From Longimicrobium sp. (GTDB lineage Bacteria; Gemmatimonadota; Gemmatimonadetes; Longimicrobiales; Longimicrobiaceae), in contig NZ_DATIND010000156.1 of NCBI RefSeq assembly GCF_035474595.1, positions 1 through 64,000 on the forward strand: a stretch of 64,000 nt of DNA. Direction: 5' to 3'. Position 1 is the stretch's first letter. The number at the start of each line of letters is the position of its first letter. Below, in pieces: positions 31,020 through 40,534 of this stretch. The notes beneath the pieces are model-generated. The model saw only the letters and a list, made by a program, of their open reading frames with translations, did no database searches and had not been told where the DNA came from. The position numbers and the translations under genes are program-made.

Positions 31020-33785
31020 TCAGCCCGCGCCGGCGGGCGCCGCCGCGGTGCGGAACACGCTCGCGAAGTCCAGCGCCGTGTCGATGTTCTCGCGCGCGGG
31101 CGCGGCCCACGGCCCCTCGGGGTCCGCCTCCACCGCCCGGCGCCAGTGCTCGATGGCCTCGCGGAAGCGCCGCTCCGCCGCGGCCACCATCCCCAGGTGG
31201 AACAGCGCGTCGGGGCGATGGGGATCGAAGCGCAGGATGCGCGCGAAGGCCGTCCGCGCGTCGGCCCGCCGCCCGTCGTCCAGCAGCACCTGCCCCAGGA
31301 GGAGGAGCGCGTCGAAGTGGTACGGGTCGCCCGCGAGGAGATCGACCAGCCCGTGCACCGCCTCGCCGAAGCGCCCGGCCGCGCGGTAGGCCGAGGCGAG
31401 GAGGAGCGCGCCCTCGAAGTACGTGGGGAGCACGTCCAGCGCCGCCCGCGCCTCGGCGATCGCGTCCTCCGTCCGCCCGCGGTCCAGGTAGAGCCGCCCC
31501 AGCTCCAGCCGCGCCGCGACGAAGTCCGGATCGAGCCGGATGGCCAGCTTCAGCGCGCGCTCGGCGTCGTCCGGCTTTCCCGCGGCGACCGCGGCGCGGC
31601 CCAGGTTGCGCAGCAGCCCGGCATCCTTCGGCGCCAGCTCCACCGCGCGCGAGAAGACGCGCACCGCCTCCGTCGCCTCGCCCTCGCCCAGCAGCGCCTC
31701 GCCCAGCACCTGCAGGTTGTCCACGCGGTCGGGGTCGTGCTCGCGCACCATCTCGGCGGCCTCGCGCGCGTCCGCCGGGCGGCCCAGGCGCAGGAGCGCG
31801 CGGGCGCGGCCGGCCCAGGCGCGCGCGTGATCCGGCCCCCACGGCTGCGCCTCCAGCCGCGCGATCGCGCTGTCGAAGCGCTCCAGCGCCTCGCCCTCCA
31901 GCCCCTGCCGCAGGAAGATCTGCGCGGTCAGCAGCGCCGCCTGCACCGGGTCGGCCCCGGCGACGGCCACGCGCCGCACCTCGCCCAGCGCGCGGTCCAG
32001 CAGCCCCTTGGAGAGATAGTCCTCGGCCAGCGCGAAGGCGTCCGCCGCGGCGACGGGAGCCGTCGCCGGCGCGGCGGCGGGCTGCGGGGCCAGCTCGCTG
32101 AAGATCTGGTCCAGCGCCTGGTCGTCGAAGGTGAAGCTCTCCACCCCCGCGTCGCCGCTGATGCGCTCGGCCGCGTCCAGCTCGGGCGCCAGCACCTCGG
32201 CGTACTCGAACTGCACGTCGATCGACAGCTTGTAGCGCGGCGTGGTGTAGTACGGGTTCAGCTCCAGCGCGCGCTTGGTCTCCCGCAGCGCCCCCTCGAA
32301 GTCGCCCAGGTTGCTGAGGACGAAGGAAAGGTTGTAGCGCGCCTCGGCGTAGTCGGGGTCGGCCTCCACCGAGCGGACGAAGGCGTTCCTCGCCTCCTCG
32401 TACCGGCGGGTCTCCATCAGCACCGCGCCGATGCCGTTCCACGCGGCCGCCGCGTCGGGGCTGGCGCGCAGCGCGGCGCGGTAGGCGTCCAGCGCGGCGC
32501 CGTGGCGGCCGCGGCGCAGGTACATCAGCCCGCGGTTGCACCACGCGTCCACGAACTCGGCGCGGAGGCCCACGGCCTGCGCGAACGCCTCCTCGGCGCC
32601 CGCATCGTCGCCGCGGTGCAGGCGGACCACGCCCAGGTTGTTCCACGCCAGCGCGTAGCCGGCGTCGCTGTCCAGCGCGCGGCGGTAGCTCCCCTCGGCT
32701 GCGTCGACATCCCCCGTCTGGTGCTGGCAGACGCCGCGCTCGTTCCAGAGCTTGGGGCTCTTCTCGTCTTCGGCCAGCAGCCGGTCGTAGAGATCGAGCG
32801 CCTGCGACGCCTTTCCCTGGAGGAGGTAGACCTCGGCCATGGCCTGGCGCACCAGCGCCGGCTCTTCGGCCTGCTCCAGCGCGCGCCCGAACTCGCGCAG
32901 CGCCTCGTCGTACAGCGCCTTCTGGCGGAAGGCGATCCCCAGGTTGTAGTGCGCCAGCTTCTCGCCCTGCGCCACCTCGGGGCGGCGCACGCGCCCGCCG
33001 ACCAGCTCCTGGTAGCGCGCGGTGCTGTAGCGGTCCAGCGAAAGGTTGGCCTGCGCCTTGGCGAAGTGGGGGTTCAGCTGCATCGCCCGGCGCGACTCCT
33101 GGCTGGCGCGCTCCATGTCCTGCATGTCGCCGTAGACGAAGGCCAGCACGTAGTGCGCGTCCGGGAGCTCCGGGTTCAGCTCCACCGCCCGCGTCAGCTC
33201 GCGCAGCGCCTCGTCGTTCAGCCCGCGGTTGTAGTAGAGCTCGCCCACGTAGAAGTGGAGCACGGCGCTGTCGGGATCGTGCTCCAGCGCGCGCAGGAAC
33301 CACGTCATCGCCGTCTCGAAGTTCCCCCCCGCCTTCTCCGCCTGCCCCAGCTGGATGAGGACGCCCAGGTCGTCCGGGTCCTGGGCCAGGACGCGCTTCA
33401 GCTCGGCCACCGCGCCGGCGTGGTCGCCGGTGTTGAGGTACGCGGTCGCGAGCCGGGTGCGCGCCTCGGCGTCGGCCGGGTCCTCGCGCAGCCGCTCGCG
33501 CAGCTCCGAGATCATCCGGTCGTAGTAGCCGGTGGCGAAGTAGGCGATCTCCAAGTTCCGCTGCGCCACCACCATCTTGGCGTCGATGGCCAGCGCGCGC
33601 TGGAACTGCTGGATCGCCTCCTCGTACAGCGCCTTGTTGAAGTAGAGGACGCCCAGGTTGTTGTGCGCGCCCGCGTCGGCGGCGTCGATCCGCTGGGCGA
33701 ATCCGCGCAGGATGCGCAGGTCGCGCTCCGAGTGGGGCGGGCGCGGCTCGTGGGCGGCGGGGGAAAGGTCCTGCAGCTCAGGCAA
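31020..33785 (-). CDS. large TPR scaffold protein
   Basis: A 921-residue protein made almost entirely of TPRs (about 20 or more). The first block runs over residues about 35-545, and a linker rich in Ala/Pro at about 560-590 separates a second TPR block to the end. Examples: NNLGVLYFNKALYEEAIQQF and WNNLGVVRLHRGDDAGAEEA. No signal peptide is seen, so it should be cytoplasmic. In myxobacteria, TPR proteins assist MglA-driven motility and pili; here it probably organises the Che/Mgl complex. It overlaps cheC by 8 bases. Confidence 0.88.
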   Translation of the reverse strand: MPELQDLSPAAHEPRPPHSERDLRILRGFAQRIDAADAGAHNNLGVLYFNKALYEEAIQQFQRALAIDAKMVVAQRNLEIAYFATGYYDRMISELRERLREDPADAEARTRLATAYLNTGDHAGAVAELKRVLAQDPDDLGVLIQLGQAEKAGGNFETAMTWFLRALEHDPDSAVLHFYVGELYYNRGLNDEALRELTRAVELNPELPDAHYVLAFVYGDMQDMERASQESRRAMQLNPHFAKAQANLSLDRYSTARYQELVGGRVRRPEVAQGEKLAHYNLGIAFRQKALYDEALREFGRALEQAEEPALVRQAMAEVYLLQGKASQALDLYDRLLAEDEKSPKLWNERGVCQHQTGDVDAAEGSYRRALDSDAGYALAWNNLGVVRLHRGDDAGAEEAFAQAVGLRAEFVDAWCNRGLMYLRRGRHGAALDAYRAALRASPDAAAAWNGIGAVLMETRRYEEARNAFVRSVEADPDYAEARYNLSFVLSNLGDFEGALRETKRALELNPYYTTPRYKLSIDVQFEYAEVLAPELDAAERISGDAGVESFTFDDQALDQIFSELAPQPAAAPATAPVAAADAFALAEDYLSKGLLDRALGEVRRVAVAGADPVQAALLTAQIFLRQGLEGEALERFDSAIARLEAQPWGPDHARAWAGRARALLRLGRPADAREAAEMVREHDPDRVDNLQVLGEALLGEGEATEAVRVFSRAVELAPKDAGLLRNLGRAAVAAGKPDDAERALKLAIRLDPDFVAARLELGRLYLDRGRTEDAIAEARAALDVLPTYFEGALLLASAYRAAGRFGEAVHGLVDLLAGDPYHFDALLLLGQVLLDDGRRADARTAFARILRFDPHRPDALFHLGMVAAAERRFREAIEHWRRAVEADPEGPWAAPARENIDTALDFASVFRTAAAPAGAG

Positions 33786-34398
33786 GGCGGATCGCCTGGA
33801 GGATGATCTCGAGCGACTCCACGTCGGGAAGGAGCAGGAACTGGCCCTGCACCGTCTCGTCGCCGTCCATCACGAACTCGGTCTGGATGCAGAACACGAA
33901 GTCGCGCTCGTGCCCGAAGTTGGTGTACGCCGTGGTCAGCACCGCGCCGCACAGGTCGATCACCAGCGACGGGACGGACGGGAGGAGCATGAGCCCCATG
34001 AAGTCCGACAGCGCGTTCATGTAGGCGGCCGAGAGGATGTTCCCCGCCTCCTTGATGGCGCTCTGCTCCAGCTCGCCGAACACGTGGCTGGAGCCCGGCT
34101 GCCGGTGCAGGAGGATCTCGGCCAGGCGCATGGCGCTGTTGCGCGGAAAGATGAGCAGCGTGCGCCCGGTCAGGTCGCCCAGCATGTGCATCAGCACGGC
34201 GGCCACAACCTCTTCGGGGTGGCCCATGATGTCGGGCACGTCCTCCAGCGCGGTGACCTGCAGGCGCGGAACGTTGATCATGATCCGCGTGTTGGTCATC
34301 TGCGACAGCGCCGTGGCGGCGTGCCCCGCCCCCATGTTGCTGACTTCGCGGAGGGCGTCGATCTGAATGGCCCCCAGGTCCCGCAGGTCGAGCGTCAT
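33778..34398 (-). CDS. cheC: CheY-P phosphatase CheC
   Basis: A 206-residue CheC with both phosphatase helices: EVSNMGAGHAATALSQM (Glu18/Asn21) and EAGNILSAAYMNALSDF (Glu117/Asn120), each ExxxN with the following hydrophobic pattern. Two active sites distinguish CheC from CheX-like variants. It hydrolyses CheY-P, and CheD (22134-22622) is its usual partner. The start is at ATG 34398; the frame is open upstream without family similarity. It overlaps the large TPR gene by 8 bases. Confidence 0.93.
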   Translation of the reverse strand: MTLDLRDLGAIQIDALREVSNMGAGHAATALSQMTNTRIMINVPRLQVTALEDVPDIMGHPEEVVAAVLMHMLGDLTGRTLLIFPRNSAMRLAEILLHRQPGSSHVFGELEQSAIKEAGNILSAAYMNALSDFMGLMLLPSVPSLVIDLCGAVLTTAYTNFGHERDFVFCIQTEFVMDGDETVQGQFLLLPDVESLEIILQAIRLA

Positions 34399-34569
34399 AC
34401 TCGCGGTCGCCTCGTGTGCGTGTGTCGGACCTGCATCAACTTCGGGTCGTGGTCCTGCCGGATCTGTCCGCATCGCCATCAGGAACAGCTAACTTCTTAC
34501 GCCTCGAACTGCAACGTCGGAGTTTCCATCTCCCCCGCAGAGCGCCCCCTCCGCGACGAAGGCGCGTCC

Positions 34570-34665
34570 ATCCGCAGCAATGCCGGCCAAGCTACCTCTC
34601 CCGGTACGGGAGAGGTGGAGGGCCTGAGCCGGCCGGAGAGGGCGCGATGCGGCGGACGCACACTC
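34570..34665 (+). repeat. dispersed hairpin repeat (ACCTCTCCC arms), copy 2
   Basis: Centre at 34594-34616, with the same flanking blocks as copy 1 (AATGCCGG then CCAAGCT before; GGAGAGGGCGCGATGC after). With a GGGGACAGG run at 34684-34712 it fills most of the gene-free stretch 34399-34708 between cheA and cheC. Confidence 0.7.
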
Positions 34666-34708
34666 GCATCGTCCCGCTCGCCCTGTCCCTCTCCCCTATC
34701 CCTGTCCC

Positions 34709-36661
34709 CTACGCCGCGTTCGCCGCCGCCAGCACACTCCCGGCGTCCAGGATCAGCGCCGGGCGCCCGTCGGAGAGGATCGTGGCGCCGGAGAACAGGC
34801 GCAGCGTGTCGGCGGTGGTGTCGAACTGCTTCACCACGATCTCCTGCTGCCCCATCAGAGCATCGACCTCCAGGCCGATGCGCTGCTCGCCCACTTCCAG
34901 GATCACCGCGTGGCGCTTCTCGCCGTCGGGGCGCGTGCCGTTGGTGCGCAGGATCTGGCGCAACCCCAGGAGCGGGATCACCTCGTCGCGCAGGAAGGCC
35001 ACGTTGCGCCCCTTCACCGTCCCCACCTCGTCGGCCAGGAGATGGACGGTCTCGCCGACGTGGGTGAGCGGCAGCGCGTAGGTCTCGCCGCTCTGCCGCA
35101 CCAGCAGCGCGCGAACGATGGCCAGCGTCTGCGGCAGCTGCAGCGTCATCGAGGTGCCGCGGCCGGGCTCGCTGAAGATCTCCAGCATCCCCCCCAGCGC
35201 CCGCACGCGCGTGGCCACCACGTCCAGCCCCACGCCGCGCCCGCTGACGTCCGTCACCGTCTCGGCGGTGGAGAAGCCGGGGCGCGTCAGCAGGCGGTGG
35301 ACTTCCTCGTCGGGGAGCGCGGCGGCTTCCTCGCGCGTCACCAGCCCGTTCTGCACGGCCTTGGCGAGGACGCGCTCGCGCTGGATCCCGCGCCCGTCGT
35401 CCTCCACGCGGATGATGATGCGGCTGCGCTCGCGGCTGGCGGACAGGCGGAGCGTGCCCGTCTCGGGCTTGCCGTGCGCGCGGCGCTCGGCCGGCGCCTC
35501 GATGCCGTGGTCCAGCGAGTTGCGCAGGAGGTGGACGAGCGGGTCGCCGATCTCGTCGAGCATCGAGCGGTCCAGCTCGATCTCTTTCCCCTCCATCACG
35601 AAGTCGACCTTCTTCCCCAGCGTCCGCGCGGCGTCGCGCACCAGGCGGGGGAAGCGGTCGAAAACCTGCGACACGGGGGCGAGGCGCGCCCGCATCACCT
35701 CGTCCTGCAGCTCGCCGATCAGCCGGCTGGCCTGGTCCACCGTCTCGGCCAGCTCGGGAACGTCGGGGCCCACCAGCCTGCGCAGCCGGTCGCGGGCGAT
35801 GACCAGCTCGCCCACCTGGTTCATCAGCGCGTCCAGCCGGCGCAGGTCCACGCGGATGTGCCGCGCCCGCCCCGCCGCCCCGGCCGCCGCGCGCCCCTCC
35901 TCCGCCCCCGCGTCGGGCGACGCGATCTCGGCCGCAGCTTCCACGCGCCGCTCGCCCACGTCGACCGAGCCGATCTCGCCGACGGAGAGGAGGGCGCGCC
36001 GCACCTCGTCCGCGGGCGCGGCGGTGCGCAGGACGAAGCGCAGCGCGCCGGTGAACTCCGGCTCGTTCAGCGCCGCCTCGCCCGGCTCCACCCCGCTCAC
36101 CTCGCCCAGCTCGCGCGCGCGCTTCAGCGCCATGAAGGCGCGCACGCCGGGAAGGAGAGCCTCCTTCGCGACCTGAACGCGGACGGCGAGCGCCCCGTCT
36201 TCCGCCTCGGCGGCGAGGTCGATCTCGCGCGGCGGAGCGGCGTCGAGCTCGATCTGCGGGGCGAAGATGTCGAACGAGACGTCGTCGCCCGCGGCGGCGC
36301 GGAGCCGCGTGAGCAGCGCCTCCAGCCGCGGCTCGTCGCCGCTCTCCTCCACCGCCAGCTCGATGGCCCGCTCCAGCGCGTCGCAGGCGGCGAAGAGCAG
36401 GTCGATGGTCTCCGGCGTGGCCTGCGCCTTCCCGTGCCGGATGCGGTCCAGCAGGTTCTCCATCTCGTGGGAGAGGTCGGCGACGGAGCGGTAGCCCATC
36501 GTCGCGCTCATCCCCTTGATGGTGTGGACGGCGCGGAATACCCCCTCCACCACCTGCCGCGACCCCGGATCGGACTCCAGGGAAAGCAGCAGGTGGTTGA
36601 TCGTCGAGACGTGCTCGCGCGACTCGGAGAGGAAGAGCTCCCCGTACTGCGAGAGTTCCAT
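34709..36661 (-). CDS. cheA: chemotaxis histidine kinase CheA
   Basis: A 650-residue CheA with all domains. HPt (residues 1-105) carries phospho-His46 in RAVHTIKGMSATMG. A P2-like response-regulator docking domain follows (about 150-250, VRVQVAKEALLPGVRAFMAL and EFTGALRFVLRTAAPADEVR). The P3 dimerisation helices lie at about 280-340 (VDLRRLDALMNQVGELVIAR). The ATPase domain has the N-box HLLRNSLDHGIE and the G boxes VEDDGRGI and GRGVGLDVV. The CheW-like P5 runs about 525-650. Inputs come from receptors via CheW, outputs go to CheY and CheB. It has intergenic arrays on both sides, so it probably has a separate promoter. Confidence 0.97.
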   Translation of the reverse strand: MELSQYGELFLSESREHVSTINHLLLSLESDPGSRQVVEGVFRAVHTIKGMSATMGYRSVADLSHEMENLLDRIRHGKAQATPETIDLLFAACDALERAIELAVEESGDEPRLEALLTRLRAAAGDDVSFDIFAPQIELDAAPPREIDLAAEAEDGALAVRVQVAKEALLPGVRAFMALKRARELGEVSGVEPGEAALNEPEFTGALRFVLRTAAPADEVRRALLSVGEIGSVDVGERRVEAAAEIASPDAGAEEGRAAAGAAGRARHIRVDLRRLDALMNQVGELVIARDRLRRLVGPDVPELAETVDQASRLIGELQDEVMRARLAPVSQVFDRFPRLVRDAARTLGKKVDFVMEGKEIELDRSMLDEIGDPLVHLLRNSLDHGIEAPAERRAHGKPETGTLRLSASRERSRIIIRVEDDGRGIQRERVLAKAVQNGLVTREEAAALPDEEVHRLLTRPGFSTAETVTDVSGRGVGLDVVATRVRALGGMLEIFSEPGRGTSMTLQLPQTLAIVRALLVRQSGETYALPLTHVGETVHLLADEVGTVKGRNVAFLRDEVIPLLGLRQILRTNGTRPDGEKRHAVILEVGEQRIGLEVDALMGQQEIVVKQFDTTADTLRLFSGATILSDGRPALILDAGSVLAAANAA

Positions 36662-36664
36662 TAC

Positions 36665-36833
36665 GGAAAATGCGTGAGTGCGGAAGTGCGGGAGTGCGCT
36701 GAATCAGGAGCGGCGGCGGGCCGTGTGCCGCGGGCCGGGCGGCGGTGCGGCCGGTGCATGGGATGTGGACGAAGACTCCGGCCGCATCCGCGGTCGAAGC
36801 GCACTTCCGCACTCACGCACTTCCGCACTTTCG
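36665..36833. repeat. inverted pair of octanucleotide arrays between cheY and cheA
   Basis: One arm at 36669-36692 (GTGAGTGCGGAAGTGCGGGA) and a complementary arm at 36801-36830 (CACTTCCGCACTCACGCACT) enclose about 110 bases and could form a long hairpin. The arms abut the start of cheA and the stop of cheY. Confidence 0.7.
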
Positions 36834-36835
36834 GT

Positions 36836-37198
36836 TCACCCCAGAACCCGCTGCACGGCCTCCAGCACCCGGCTGGGCTGGAACGGCTTCACCACGAAGT
36901 CGCGGGCGCCGGCCTGGATGGCCTCGATCACCAGCGCCTGCTGGCCCATGGCGCTGCACATCAGGATCTTGGCGCCGGGATCTTCCTTCATGATCTCGCG
37001 CACGGCGTCGATCCCGCCCATGTCCGGCATCACGATGTCCATCGTCACCAGGTCCGGCTTGAACTGGCGGTACTTCTCCACCGCCTGCACCCCGGTCTCG
37101 GCCTCGGCCACGATCTGGAAGCCGGCCTGGGTGAGGATGTCGCCGATCATGGTGCGCATGAAGATGGCGTCATCGCAGATCAACACGGTCTGACTCAT
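36836..37198 (-). CDS. cheY: chemotaxis response regulator CheY
   Basis: A 120-residue single receiver domain: acidic D9/D10 (ICDDA), phosphoacceptor D54 (TMDIVMP), SA (LMCSAMG) and the conserved lysine in VVKPF. Phosphorylated by CheA, it would signal the motor or motility machine. ATG at 37198 is preceded by GGAGG; a TTG three bases earlier is possible but less likely. It lies between cheW and cheA. Confidence 0.95.
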   Translation of the reverse strand: MSQTVLICDDAIFMRTMIGDILTQAGFQIVAEAETGVQAVEKYRQFKPDLVTMDIVMPDMGGIDAVREIMKEDPGAKILMCSAMGQQALVIEAIQAGARDFVVKPFQPSRVLEAVQRVLG

Positions 37199-37247
37199 CA
37201 AGCCTCCGTCTGTCGTGCTTGGGTTGGGGTGGGTACGCCGGAGCGCC

Positions 37248-37745
37248 CTAAGCCAGGATGGGGTCGAAGATCTCGTCGGGGTCGATGGCGACGAAGATCT
37301 CGTCGTCCACCTCGCCCACCCCGCGCAGGTACGCGCGGTCGATGCGAAGCGAGCGCAGGGTCTCGGCGCTGTCGGCCAGGGTGCCGGGGTCCACCTGCAC
37401 GATGCGCGCGACCTCCTCCACCGCCAGCCCCGCCAGCTTCCCGCGGTGCTCCACGATCACGATGCTGTGCTCGGGGATGCGCGACGCGGGAGGAAGGTTC
37501 AGGCGGGCGCCCAGGTCCACCACGGTCACGATGCGCCCGCGCAGGTTGATCAGCCCGCACACGTGCGCGCCGCTCCCGGGGAGCGGCGTGTACGGCCGGG
37601 CGGGAATGATCTCGCGGATGCGCGCGACGGGAACCGCAAAGCGGTGCTCGCCGACCACGAAGAGCACCATCCGCTCGGGCTCGGCCGCCTCGCCCTCGGG
37701 CGCGCCGGCCGCGGCGGGAACGTCTTCGGTGTCGGTGTGGAGCAT
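37248..37745 (-). CDS. cheW: CheW coupling protein, first gene of the cluster
   Basis: A 165-residue CheW: RMVLFVVGEHRFAVPVARIR, GLINLRGRIVTVVDLGARLN and HSIVIVEHRGKLAGLAVEEV. The N-terminal 30 residues are an acidic Ala/Glu-rich extension. The start is set at ATG 37745; GTG at 37769 is also possible. It heads the CheW-CheY-CheA run, 49 bases before cheY, and is the best candidate to pair with this CheA. Confidence 0.92.
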   Translation of the reverse strand: MLHTDTEDVPAAAGAPEGEAAEPERMVLFVVGEHRFAVPVARIREIIPARPYTPLPGSGAHVCGLINLRGRIVTVVDLGARLNLPPASRIPEHSIVIVEHRGKLAGLAVEEVARIVQVDPGTLADSAETLRSLRIDRAYLRGVGEVDDEIFVAIDPDEIFDPILA

Positions 37746-37840
37746 CGCCGGCCTGAAGGGGAGCCGCACTCTGTGGTCGTGAGCGGACCAACATAGCGGG
37801 GGCGTCAGGGGCGGTCAAGAAAGCGCGGCCCCGCTGCGCG

Positions 37841-37964: not shown

Positions 37965-39461
37965 TCAGGCGCCCGGAGGCGGCGGCATGCGCAGCCGCGC
38001 TTCGGTGTCGCGCTCGAAGGCATTGCACGTCCGCAGCACGTCCAGCGCGCGCTGCAGGTCCGCGAGGTCGATCGCGGCCGAGAACGCCTGCGCGTAGTCC
38101 AGCATCTTCAGCAGTGCGTCGGGCACGTTCTGCCGCGAGAGCGCGCGCAGCGCCAGCAGGTAGTCGTCGCGGTACGAGGTGGGGATGAAGATGCGCCGCT
38201 GGCCGCCCGCCACCAGCTCGCCGTTCATCATCGCCCGCGCGATGCGGCCGTTCCCGTCGTCGAAGGGATGGACCTCGCTCACGACGAACATCATGAACGC
38301 CGCGCGCTTGAACGGCTCCGCGAGCGAGCGCAGCATCTCCCACCCCTGCCGCAGCGTTCCCGTCACCAGCTCGGGAGCGACGAAGACGGTCAGCCCGGCG
38401 CGGTTCACGGTGCTCTTCAGCTCGCCGGGGCGCTTCTCCGGGCGGCCGCCCATGATGGTGGCGTGCCGCTGCTTCAGCATCGCCATGAACTCGTCGAAAT
38501 CGGCGCCCTCGCCCACCGCGCTCCTCGTCATCTCGCGCGTGCTCCCGACCACGCGATACGTGCCCAGCACGTCGTGGGCGTCCTCGGGGCGCGCGCGCGG
38601 GATGCGGTTCTCGAAGACGATCTCCACCGCTTCCTGGATCTCGAACTCCGTTCCCTCGATGAAGTTGGAGAAGTAGGCGTCCACGAACGCCAGGTTCTCG
38701 AACGCCGTTCCGCTCATGACGGGGTCGGGACGCGCGCGCACCGGCCACTCCAGCAGTGCCGAGTGGAGCACGCGGAACAGCTCCGTGCGCCCGGAGTCGT
38801 ACGGCTCGCCCGCCGCGCGCGCCCTCGCCGCGGGCGAGGCGAGGTTCGCGGTGCGCGTCCGCAGCAGCGCGCCGATCAGCTCGTCCAGCTCGTCCGCCGC
38901 GGCTTCCGCACCCAGTGCCGGCGCGATGGCGCGCGCGCGGTCGCGCACCGCGTTCGCCTCCGCCTCGCCGCCGTGGCGCACCATCCGCTCCAGCCGCGCC
39001 TCGACCTCGTCGCGCGTGAGCGCGGGGGACTCGGGCCCGCGCACGCGCCGGACGCGCAGGCATTCCAGGAACGCCCGCGCGGGCGATGCCAGCCACAGCG
39101 TCTGCACGAAGCGGTTGTCGCCGTCCAGCGGCCCCGGCCCCTTCAGCTGCCGCACGCGCAGCCCGGGAAGCTCGACGATGCGATCATAGGGACCGGTGAG
39201 GAAGATCGTCCCGCGCGGGGTTGGCTTCGCCTCCAGCGCCGTCCGGTAGCTGACGACGGAATCGGGGAAGAGGAGCCCCACGATCTGCCAGAGATGGCGC
39301 CGGACGACGGCGTCGGGCGAATCGGTGAGATTCGTGGTGTAGAGCCGGCTGGCCAGCTTCCGCACGGCACCCGCGCGCACGGCTTCGGCCACGCCGGAGG
39401 ATAGCTCCCGCGTGCTGACGAAGACCTCGGGAAGACTGGCGAGCGGGAGATTTCGTACCAT
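37965..39461 (-). CDS. Fic protein with AbiEi-like N-terminal domain
   Basis: A 498-residue protein. Residues 1-60 are a winged-helix region like AbiEi antitoxins (LASLPEVFVSTRELSSGVAE, then GAVRKLASRLYTT). Residues about 240-490 are a Fic domain with the catalytic motif HPFDDGNGRIAR at about 398-409, complete for AMPylation. The inhibitory helix motif S/TxxxE(G/N) appears as SNFIEG near residue 268, so activity is probably self-restrained (class II type). The start codon lies inside one of four operator-like repeats, consistent with autoregulation by the N-terminal domain. The target protein is unknown. Confidence 0.88.
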   Translation of the reverse strand: MVRNLPLASLPEVFVSTRELSSGVAEAVRAGAVRKLASRLYTTNLTDSPDAVVRRHLWQIVGLLFPDSVVSYRTALEAKPTPRGTIFLTGPYDRIVELPGLRVRQLKGPGPLDGDNRFVQTLWLASPARAFLECLRVRRVRGPESPALTRDEVEARLERMVRHGGEAEANAVRDRARAIAPALGAEAAADELDELIGALLRTRTANLASPAARARAAGEPYDSGRTELFRVLHSALLEWPVRARPDPVMSGTAFENLAFVDAYFSNFIEGTEFEIQEAVEIVFENRIPRARPEDAHDVLGTYRVVGSTREMTRSAVGEGADFDEFMAMLKQRHATIMGGRPEKRPGELKSTVNRAGLTVFVAPELVTGTLRQGWEMLRSLAEPFKRAAFMMFVVSEVHPFDDGNGRIARAMMNGELVAGGQRRIFIPTSYRDDYLLALRALSRQNVPDALLKMLDYAQAFSAAIDLADLQRALDVLRTCNAFERDTEARLRMPPPPGA

Positions 39462-39558
39462 GTAAGCGCCCGGATTCGGGATTCCGGGTAATATTTTACC
39501 ACGTAAGCCACCAAAAAGGAAGACATTTTACCACGTAAGGAGAAAACGTACTACGTAA
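39455..39558 (-). promoter_or_regulatory. promoter region with four TTACCACGTAA-type operator sites
   Basis: Four 11-base near-palindromes, TTAC-N3-GTAA or close variants: 39455-39465, 39496-39506, 39528-39538 and 39548-39558. On the minus strand the two central ones read TTACGTGGTAAAAT, giving TAAAAT -10 boxes. The first spans the fic ATG and the last spans the stop codon of rluD. This fits autoregulation by the fic product's N-terminal DNA-binding domain. The stretch is clearly more AT-rich than its surroundings. Confidence 0.7.
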
Positions 39559-40534
39559 GCGCCGTCCCGCTCGTCTCCCGCGCCCACGCGGTGGCGGCGG
39601 CAAGGTCGGGGGGGAGCGGCGCCTCGAAGCGCATTTCCTCGCGCGTCCTCGGGTGCTGGAAGCGGAGCTCGGCGGCGTGGAGGAACTGGCGGGGGACGCG
39701 GCGCGCAAACGACTGCGCCCACCCGCGCTCGGCGCCGCCGAAGCCTTTCTCCCGCCCGGGCGCGTAGGTCGCGTCGCCGACCACGGGGTGGCCGAGATGG
39801 AGGAGGTGGATGCGGATCTGGTGCGTGCGGCCGGTCTCCAGCTCGGCGCGCAGCAGGTCGGCGGCGCGCCAGCGCTCCAGGCGGTGGAAGTGCGTGCGCG
39901 CCGGGCGTCCGTCGGGCACCACCCCCATCTTCTTTCGGTCGGTGGTGTGGCGGCCGATCGGCGCGTCCACGCTCGCCGTCTCCTGCGGGAGGTGGCCCCA
40001 GCAGGCGGTGAGATACGCGCGCCGGATCTTCCGCAGCTTCAGGTCGTGCGAGAGGGCGCGGTGCGCGTCGTCGTTCTTGGCCACGAGCATGAGGCCGCTG
40101 GTGTCCTTGTCCAGCCGGTGCACGATCCCCGGGCGCAGCACGCCGCCGATGCCGGACAGGTCGCGCACCCCGTGCAGCAGCGCGTTCACCAGCGTGCCGG
40201 TGCGGTGGCCGGCGGCGGGGTGCACGACCAGGCCGGCGGGCTTGTCGATCACCGCCAGGTCGGCGTCCTGGTAGACGATGTGGAGGGGGATGTCTTCCGC
40301 CGCGACGTCCGACGGCTCGGGAGCGGGGATGGTGACGGTGAGGCGGTCGCCCGGCGAGACGGGGTCCTTCTTGCGGACGGGCGCGCCGTTCAGCGTCACA
40401 CGGCCGTCGTCGATCCACTGCGTGGCGCGGCTGCGCGACACGTCGAGACGCGCGGCCAGCCACGCGTCCAGCCGGCCGGCCGCGTCGTCGCCGGCGGCCA
40501 GCTCCAGCGTGCGGTCAGTCGGCGGGCTCTGCAA
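39551..40534 (-). CDS. rluD: 23S rRNA-type pseudouridine synthase, RluD family
   Basis: A 327-residue enzyme. The S4 domain (residues about 15-75, RLDAWLAARLDVSRSRATQW) is followed by the catalytic domain with the RluA/D signature PGIVHRLDKDTSGL. The catalytic Asp sits in HRLDKDTSG. It converts uridines in 23S rRNA to pseudouridine; the exact site is not certain, so RluC/RluD ambiguity remains. It overlaps lspA by 20 bases, the classical lspA-rluD arrangement. Confidence 0.92.
   Translation of the reverse strand: MQSPPTDRTLELAAGDDAAGRLDAWLAARLDVSRSRATQWIDDGRVTLNGAPVRKKDPVSPGDRLTVTIPAPEPSDVAAEDIPLHIVYQDADLAVIDKPAGLVVHPAAGHRTGTLVNALLHGVRDLSGIGGVLRPGIVHRLDKDTSGLMLVAKNDDAHRALSHDLKLRKIRRAYLTACWGHLPQETASVDAPIGRHTTDRKKMGVVPDGRPARTHFHRLERWRAADLLRAELETGRTHQIRIHLLHLGHPVVGDATYAPGREKGFGGAERGWAQSFARRVPRQFLHAAELRFQHPRTREEMRFEAPLPPDLAAATAWARETSGTALT

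Follow-up and report, generated by a model that had tools for sequence, protein, structure and literature searches.

How expression of a Fic protein joined to a putative antitoxin-type DNA-binding domain might be controlled from its own promoter is the question raised by a locus in a 64,000-nucleotide stretch of a Longimicrobium sp. contig (NZ_DATIND010000156.1, positions 1 to 64,000), which we refer to as the window. A first-pass annotation had described one protein carrying both domains, with four operator repeats around its start codon, and had read the arrangement as a self-contained toxin-antitoxin-like switch. The features on which our analysis is based are collected in Table 1.

Table 1. 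Features of the fic locus, in window coordinates
Feature	Position	Strand	Remarks
fic gene, 498 aa	37965..39461	minus	ATG at 39459-39461; nine-sequence alignment with full-length relatives 52-58% identical
AbiEi-like N-terminal half, residues 1-240	38742..39461	minus	Foldseek, VIA-align, PADLOC AbiEi
Predicted winged-helix part (about residues 10-48), with an NTase-like second part next	N-terminal half	minus	structure model
Inhibitory motif SNFIEG, residues 265-270	38652..38669	minus	N-terminal to Fic core; alignment
Fic core PF02661, residues 328-413	38223..38480	minus	Pfam
Fic motif HPFDDGNGRIAR, residues 398-409	38235-38270	minus	within Fic core; alignment
Operator-like site 1, CTTACATGGTACGAAATC	39449..39466; core 39456-39466	minus	contains fic start codon
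Operator-like site 2, CTTACGTGGTAAAATATT	39490..39507; core 39497-39507	minus	41 bp upstream of site 1
Operator-like site 3, CTTACGTGGTAAAATGTC	39522..39539; core 39529-39539	minus	32 bp upstream of site 2
Operator-like site 4, CTTACGTAGTACGTTTTC	39542..39559; core 39549-39559	minus	20 bp upstream of site 3; contains rluD stop TAG
Upstream gene, RluD-type pseudouridine synthase (S4 + PseudoU_synth_2)	39551..40534	minus	3' end is part of site 4

Pfam recognised Fic alone in the window protein, with PF02661 scoring 44.9 bits (cut-off 24). Both the Fic motif and SNFIEG are intact and are kept in the full-length relatives, one of the nine aligned sequences reading SNCVEG, which bears out the earlier description of an intact Fic domain with an inhibitory motif. 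The Fic motif has the form HPFx(D/E)GN(G/K)RxxR expected of a class II protein, and SNFIEG has the form (S/T)xxxE(G/N) and lies N-terminal to the Fic motif on the same chain, as in the class II scheme outlined in PMC9755527. Because of this position and form, we assign the protein to class II under that scheme. Class II is put at about 80% of Fic proteins in the same account, which describes their control as almost unknown. Among the PADLOC models, SoFic was the best match for the Fic part.

The N-terminal half had been labelled AbiEi-like. For a model of residues 1-247, the top PDB match in Foldseek was the AbiEi antitoxin 6y8q (E 0.015), which was also listed among the matches of the full-length model. 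VIA-align likewise placed 6y8q at the top, with a Z of 7.8 over 163 residues (within residues 1-197), and ranked nucleotidyltransferases such as MenT1 between it and Rv2827c (1zel; Z 4.8 over 165 residues). By itself, this fold evidence for an AbiEi relation is middling. PADLOC AbiEi models matched 8-9 of 39 family members (nine for the most widely matching model), with a best E of 2.7e-7, while the window protein reached only E 0.0086 and 0.029. Pfam AbiEi_4 stayed below its cut-off in all 39 members (best E 0.048, with weak matches in three), and a profile search of solved sequences using the N-terminal alignments gave no meaningful match. The modeled half has the winged-helix N-terminus and AbiEi-type second domain that define the AbiEi family (COG5340). 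As the middling Z score is joined by the PADLOC matches in relatives, we take a relation to AbiEi as likely; the label is upheld by fold and by the relatives, whereas the window protein's own sequence gives it weak backing.

The family is patchily distributed. Of 298 genomes from the window's phylum, 34 have its N-terminal half; for the full protein the count is 37 of 395. A scan of genome contigs placed the protein in Gemmatimonadota, Bacteroidota, Alpha- and Gammaproteobacteria, Solidesulfovibrio and Actinobacteria. It is also present in 19 plasmid records (query coverage of 80% or more), and a few viral contigs carry family members; the search of phage records gave no match. A set of 57 non-redundant homologues (<88% identical) includes 54 with the Fic motif, every one of which has the inhibitory motif as well; the remaining three are one ROK fusion and two short frames. 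For the analysis of upstream regions, 53 loci were used, after dropping five without an assignable start codon, the three without Fic and one whose upstream region was too short.

Upstream of the window gene, the sites form asymmetric direct repeats of about 20 bp that extend over the fic start codon, the promoter region and the rluD stop. The core pattern CTTACRTRGTA matched four times on the minus strand of the window against 0.00 expected in shuffled windows, and the repeat score of the window was reached by 0 of 200 shuffles (1/201). The 12-mer CTTACRTRGTAM occurs four times in the 6.57-Mb assembly, always at the fic promoter, and its reversed control is absent. When the whole assembly was searched with the 18-mer CTTACRTRGTAMRWWWTY at up to three mismatches, the four window sites appeared at zero or one mismatch and ten others all at three. 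Neither search uncovered a regulon, there being no further good sites elsewhere in the assembly. The sites had originally been described as of TTAC-N3-GTAA type, lying across the start codon, two -10 boxes and the end of rluD. Four repeats do exist, but only two fit TTAC-N3-GTAA exactly; likewise, the ATG and the rluD stop are indeed covered, whereas the -10 boxes are without sigma-70 support, a sigma-70 consensus scan having returned no match in the window. Between sites 1 and 2 (window 39468-39489), the plus strand also has a terminator-like element, a GC-rich hairpin with A/T after it, in a spacer that is not conserved in the closest relative.

The annotation had also expected these repeats in close homologues. 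The exact window motif was found at 0 of 12 relatives' loci, but other letters recur there at the same spacing. Each lineage has its own repeat: TGGAAAATATT in Bacteroidota, CTTAAxxxxxGAAAATTCGG in sphingomonads and AAAAACACGACA in Variovorax, where it occurs four times in an 801-kb replicon, all at that replicon's own fic promoter. In both replicons tested, the repeats are thus exclusive to the fic promoter. The palindrome TTAC-N3-GTAA was rejected as the conserved unit: it is missing from the 12 relatives' loci and from the family register (consensus tcTTAAttgccaAAAATTCcCa), in which the site is longer, at about 20 bp, and lacks symmetry. As the letters vary while the ruler stays, motif searches miss such operators.

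To measure the ruler, we scored the self-match of upstream regions against dinucleotide shuffles. A per-locus version of the shuffle test reached significance in the window, whereas many GC-rich relatives, whose copies are degenerate, did not, and a pooled spacing test was chosen for that reason. Across the 53 homologues, the mean best 16-bp self-match was 10.64 at an offset of 31 bp (7.5 in shuffles, z 17.8) and 9.08 at 41 bp (7.4 in shuffles, z 8.6), with dips at the half-turn offsets 25-27 and 35-37. A self-match of at least 12/16 was reached by 20 of 53 loci at offset 31 and by 8 of 53 at offset 41. Restricting the set to 24 representatives less than 55% identical left z at 12.7 and 4.9, respectively. 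In 49 of 53 loci, a three-site model with spacings of 30-32 and 40-43 bp outscored each of the eight decoy spacings, the exceptions being L107, which ties with the decoys, and L073, L017 and L117, which fall below them. The window array follows this plan at 32 + 41, plus its fourth site.

In 27 of 53 loci, the most downstream of the three sites starts 3-6 bp ahead of the start codon; in about 11 of 53 it starts 20-22 bp before the codon and ends just ahead of it. As the ATG could itself attract the fit, we repeated the search in windows free of the start codon. An upstream pair (at least 11/16) was found in 32 of 53 loci, and in 19 of these 32 the best third copy, with 46 distances allowed, lay 40-42 bp further on. 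Loci that were found later and are less than 88% identical to the first set served as held-out cases: five of seven beat all decoys (L205, L206, L210 and L250 strongly, L255 barely), and L273 and L274 do not. The viral locus L250 has a GTG start codon in the same register. L205, L206, L210 and L250 are IMG/VR contigs called viral that encode full-length members with spaced repeats.

Could chance or base composition make an ordinary promoter or other A/T-rich stretch look like an array of this kind? The A/T-rich islands formed by these regions and the high A/T content of the shared core (TTAA ... AAAATTC) would suit such an origin, but the peaks are absent from the dinucleotide shuffles and from 158 start regions of neighbouring ORFs that served as controls from the same loci (7.68 at offset 31 and 7.27 at 41, none reaching 12), and no shuffle of the window matched its repeat score. 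We find this explanation scarcely credible. Among the genes compared, the pattern is also particular to the fused gene. A set of 28 other AbiEi_4-type genes from the class (out of 30) had a mean of 7.32 at offset 31, with none reaching 12, and 0 of 19 stand-alone AbiEi genes beat the decoys (26 found and 23 given, four of them without a usable frame or start). Of 14 further Fic genes in related genomes (out of 22), none reached 12 at offset 31 and one did so at 41.

That about half of the family have a copy over the start codon would suit repeats that act in the mRNA, with a structured or repeated RNA that controls translation or neutralises the enzyme in a type III-like manner. Folding energies of 10 leaders, however, ranged from z +0.83 to -2.14 relative to shuffles, and only two of the 10 were below -1.9, so that leader folding is not consistently below that of shuffles and a type III-like or structured RNA was rejected as a candidate. 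The unit spacing is moreover irregular (20, 32 and 41), and spacings near multiples of 10.5 bp, together with the dips at half-turn offsets, fit double-stranded DNA. We regard an action in the RNA as very improbable.

A natural comparison is offered by G008 (L128/L171), a genome of the same genus and the closest relative, whose rluD product is 88% identical to that of the window. In the window, the fic gene has as neighbours the RluD-type pseudouridine synthase gene and, from a chemotaxis cluster, a CheW-like gene; CheC-, CheA-, CheY- and CheW-like genes lie directly downstream of fic (33778-37769). In G008, rluD and cheW are about 270 bp apart, a 43-codon frame is all that remains from the ATG of the site, and no homologue of the fic protein was found anywhere in the genome. 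Four matching sites nevertheless lie between rluD and cheW, spaced 42, 31 and 20 bp, and a stricter pattern gave three exact matches in the genome, all of them between these two genes. In a gapped alignment of the two species, the sites are identical at 60 of 72 positions versus 20 of 40 for the spacers, and the total array length is equal (41+32 in the window, 42+31 in G008). That sites outlast spacers between the two closest species also speaks against repetition by chance. We read G008, from these sequences, as a recent loss of the fic gene that left the array behind, which makes its array a possible decoy or fossil.

Sites that persist without the gene might instead serve another host regulator or a dedicated sigma factor, with the Fic protein not binding them at all. 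Consistent with this, the winged-helix part shows no specific link with operator similarity (partial Mantel 0.10, p 0.13, conditional on Fic, for 36 of the 53 loci), so the reading of the sites is not attributable to one particular part of the protein. Set against it, the sites occur nowhere else in the window's own genome or in the Variovorax replicon, which would be odd for a host regulator; their letters shift by lineage while the spacing stays, with the fic gene as the only shared trans factor; and other AbiEi and Fic genes of the same class are without the pattern. On balance, we consider a host regulator unlikely. The earlier claim of a self-regulating operator is strongly supported by the comparative evidence of lineage-own repeats at a common spacing.

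Known systems offer precedents for parts of this arrangement. AbiEi of the Streptococcus agalactiae type IV AbiE system is described in PMC3985639 as binding two 23-bp repeats over -35, -10 and +1, probably with one monomer per repeat, and Rv2827c of M. tuberculosis is described in PMC7319586 as binding four 23-bp repeats at its own promoter with graded affinity; according to these accounts, both repress their own promoters. The window protein resembles them in its predicted N-terminal winged-helix and a second domain of similar fold, and in the repeated sites in its own promoter. The published sites are inverted, however, with a 23-3-23 layout for AbiEi and 13- and 4-bp gaps for Rv2827c, and neither layout is seen in the window array, where the repeats are direct, with distances of 20, 32 and 41 bp, and run into the start codon. 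The AbiEi antitoxin is, furthermore, encoded by a separate gene ahead of the AbiEii nucleotidyltransferase toxin, whereas here a Fic domain is fused and no AbiEii (DUF1814) toxin gene adjoins the window fic gene, its neighbours being the RluD-type and CheW-like genes. In CccR of Yersinia pseudotuberculosis, as presented in PMC9755527, a single class II Fic protein with an S(x)3EG motif represses its own promoter, and its Fic activity halts growth of E. coli. CccR shares with the window protein a one-chain class II Fic with a DNA-binding domain, predicted in the window protein, but its HTH is C-terminal and its dimer sits on one inverted repeat with 10-bp halves 26 bp apart, whereas the window protein has an N-terminal AbiEi-like domain and at least three direct repeats. 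SoFic-type class II Fic proteins with DNA-binding domains have the Fic core and N-terminal inhibitory motif in common with the window protein but differ in their N-terminal half, and the 14 other Fic genes tested are without the 31/41 pattern.

Given the precedents of AbiEi, Rv2827c and CccR, as far as those accounts go, autorepression on a phased array combined with silencing by SNFIEG is the simplest synthesis. By comparison of sequences and by analogy, we think it probable that the window gene encodes a self-contained, autorepressed class II Fic whose N-terminal domains sit on one face of the DNA. The AbiEi-like domain would recognise an asymmetric site of about 20 bp, probably as one monomer per site, and three or four direct repeats, running from promoter to start codon at about two, three and four helical turns (20, 31-32 and 41-42 bp), would line up the bound copies, perhaps cooperatively, so as to mask the region where transcription starts and silence the fic gene. 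Enzyme activity would be restrained separately by the intramolecular SNFIEG helix; once released by some trigger, the Fic domain would be expected to transfer AMP and might inhibit growth or be toxic. Site letters and protein would diverge together by lineage, with the geometry of the bound proteins fixing the spacing. The toxin-antitoxin-like switch originally proposed is, on the sequence evidence, unproven, the fic gene having no partner.

A bolder version makes the operator DNA the antitoxin: Fic would be inert when lined up on its private array, whose phased assembly would keep the Fic domains in check, and active once the array is lost or out-titrated. We hold this to be distinctly improbable. 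If it were true, a plasmid or locus could be addictive with one gene, and an array-only genome such as G008 would carry a built-in antidote.

Fic proteins that regulate themselves and AbiEi operators with multiple repeats are already known, and AbiE and Fic are treated as separate modules in the relevant passages of PMC8562856. We found no report of an AbiEi-Fic fusion or of a 31/41 operator in the open-access literature, and within that literature the combination of the fusion and an operator of this design (direct repeats spaced 31/41 bp, the start codon in a site, free letters) is apparently new. The control region is readable from sequence across several phyla, plasmids and viral contigs, and the family offers a ready set of matched putative DNA-binding domains and sites from which rules of specificity and spacing might be drawn.

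Several loci on plasmids and elsewhere depart from the common form. L089, on a Klebsiella quasipneumoniae plasmid (2911-4620), encodes the 570-aa ROK fusion, in which the AbiEi-like N-terminal domain is joined to an HTH and ROK rather than to Fic, and no repeat was found upstream of its gene; seven Klebsiella records from the plasmid search are of this kind. L070, L071, L074 and L080 are short or split copies of the family, which suggests frequent inactivation. At the plasmid loci L078, L087, L076 and L090, the neighbours of fic include HipA-type and VapC/AbrB genes, as in defence or addiction neighbourhoods, and the locus of L090, a shorter Fic relative, has an AbiEii-type gene as a neighbour.
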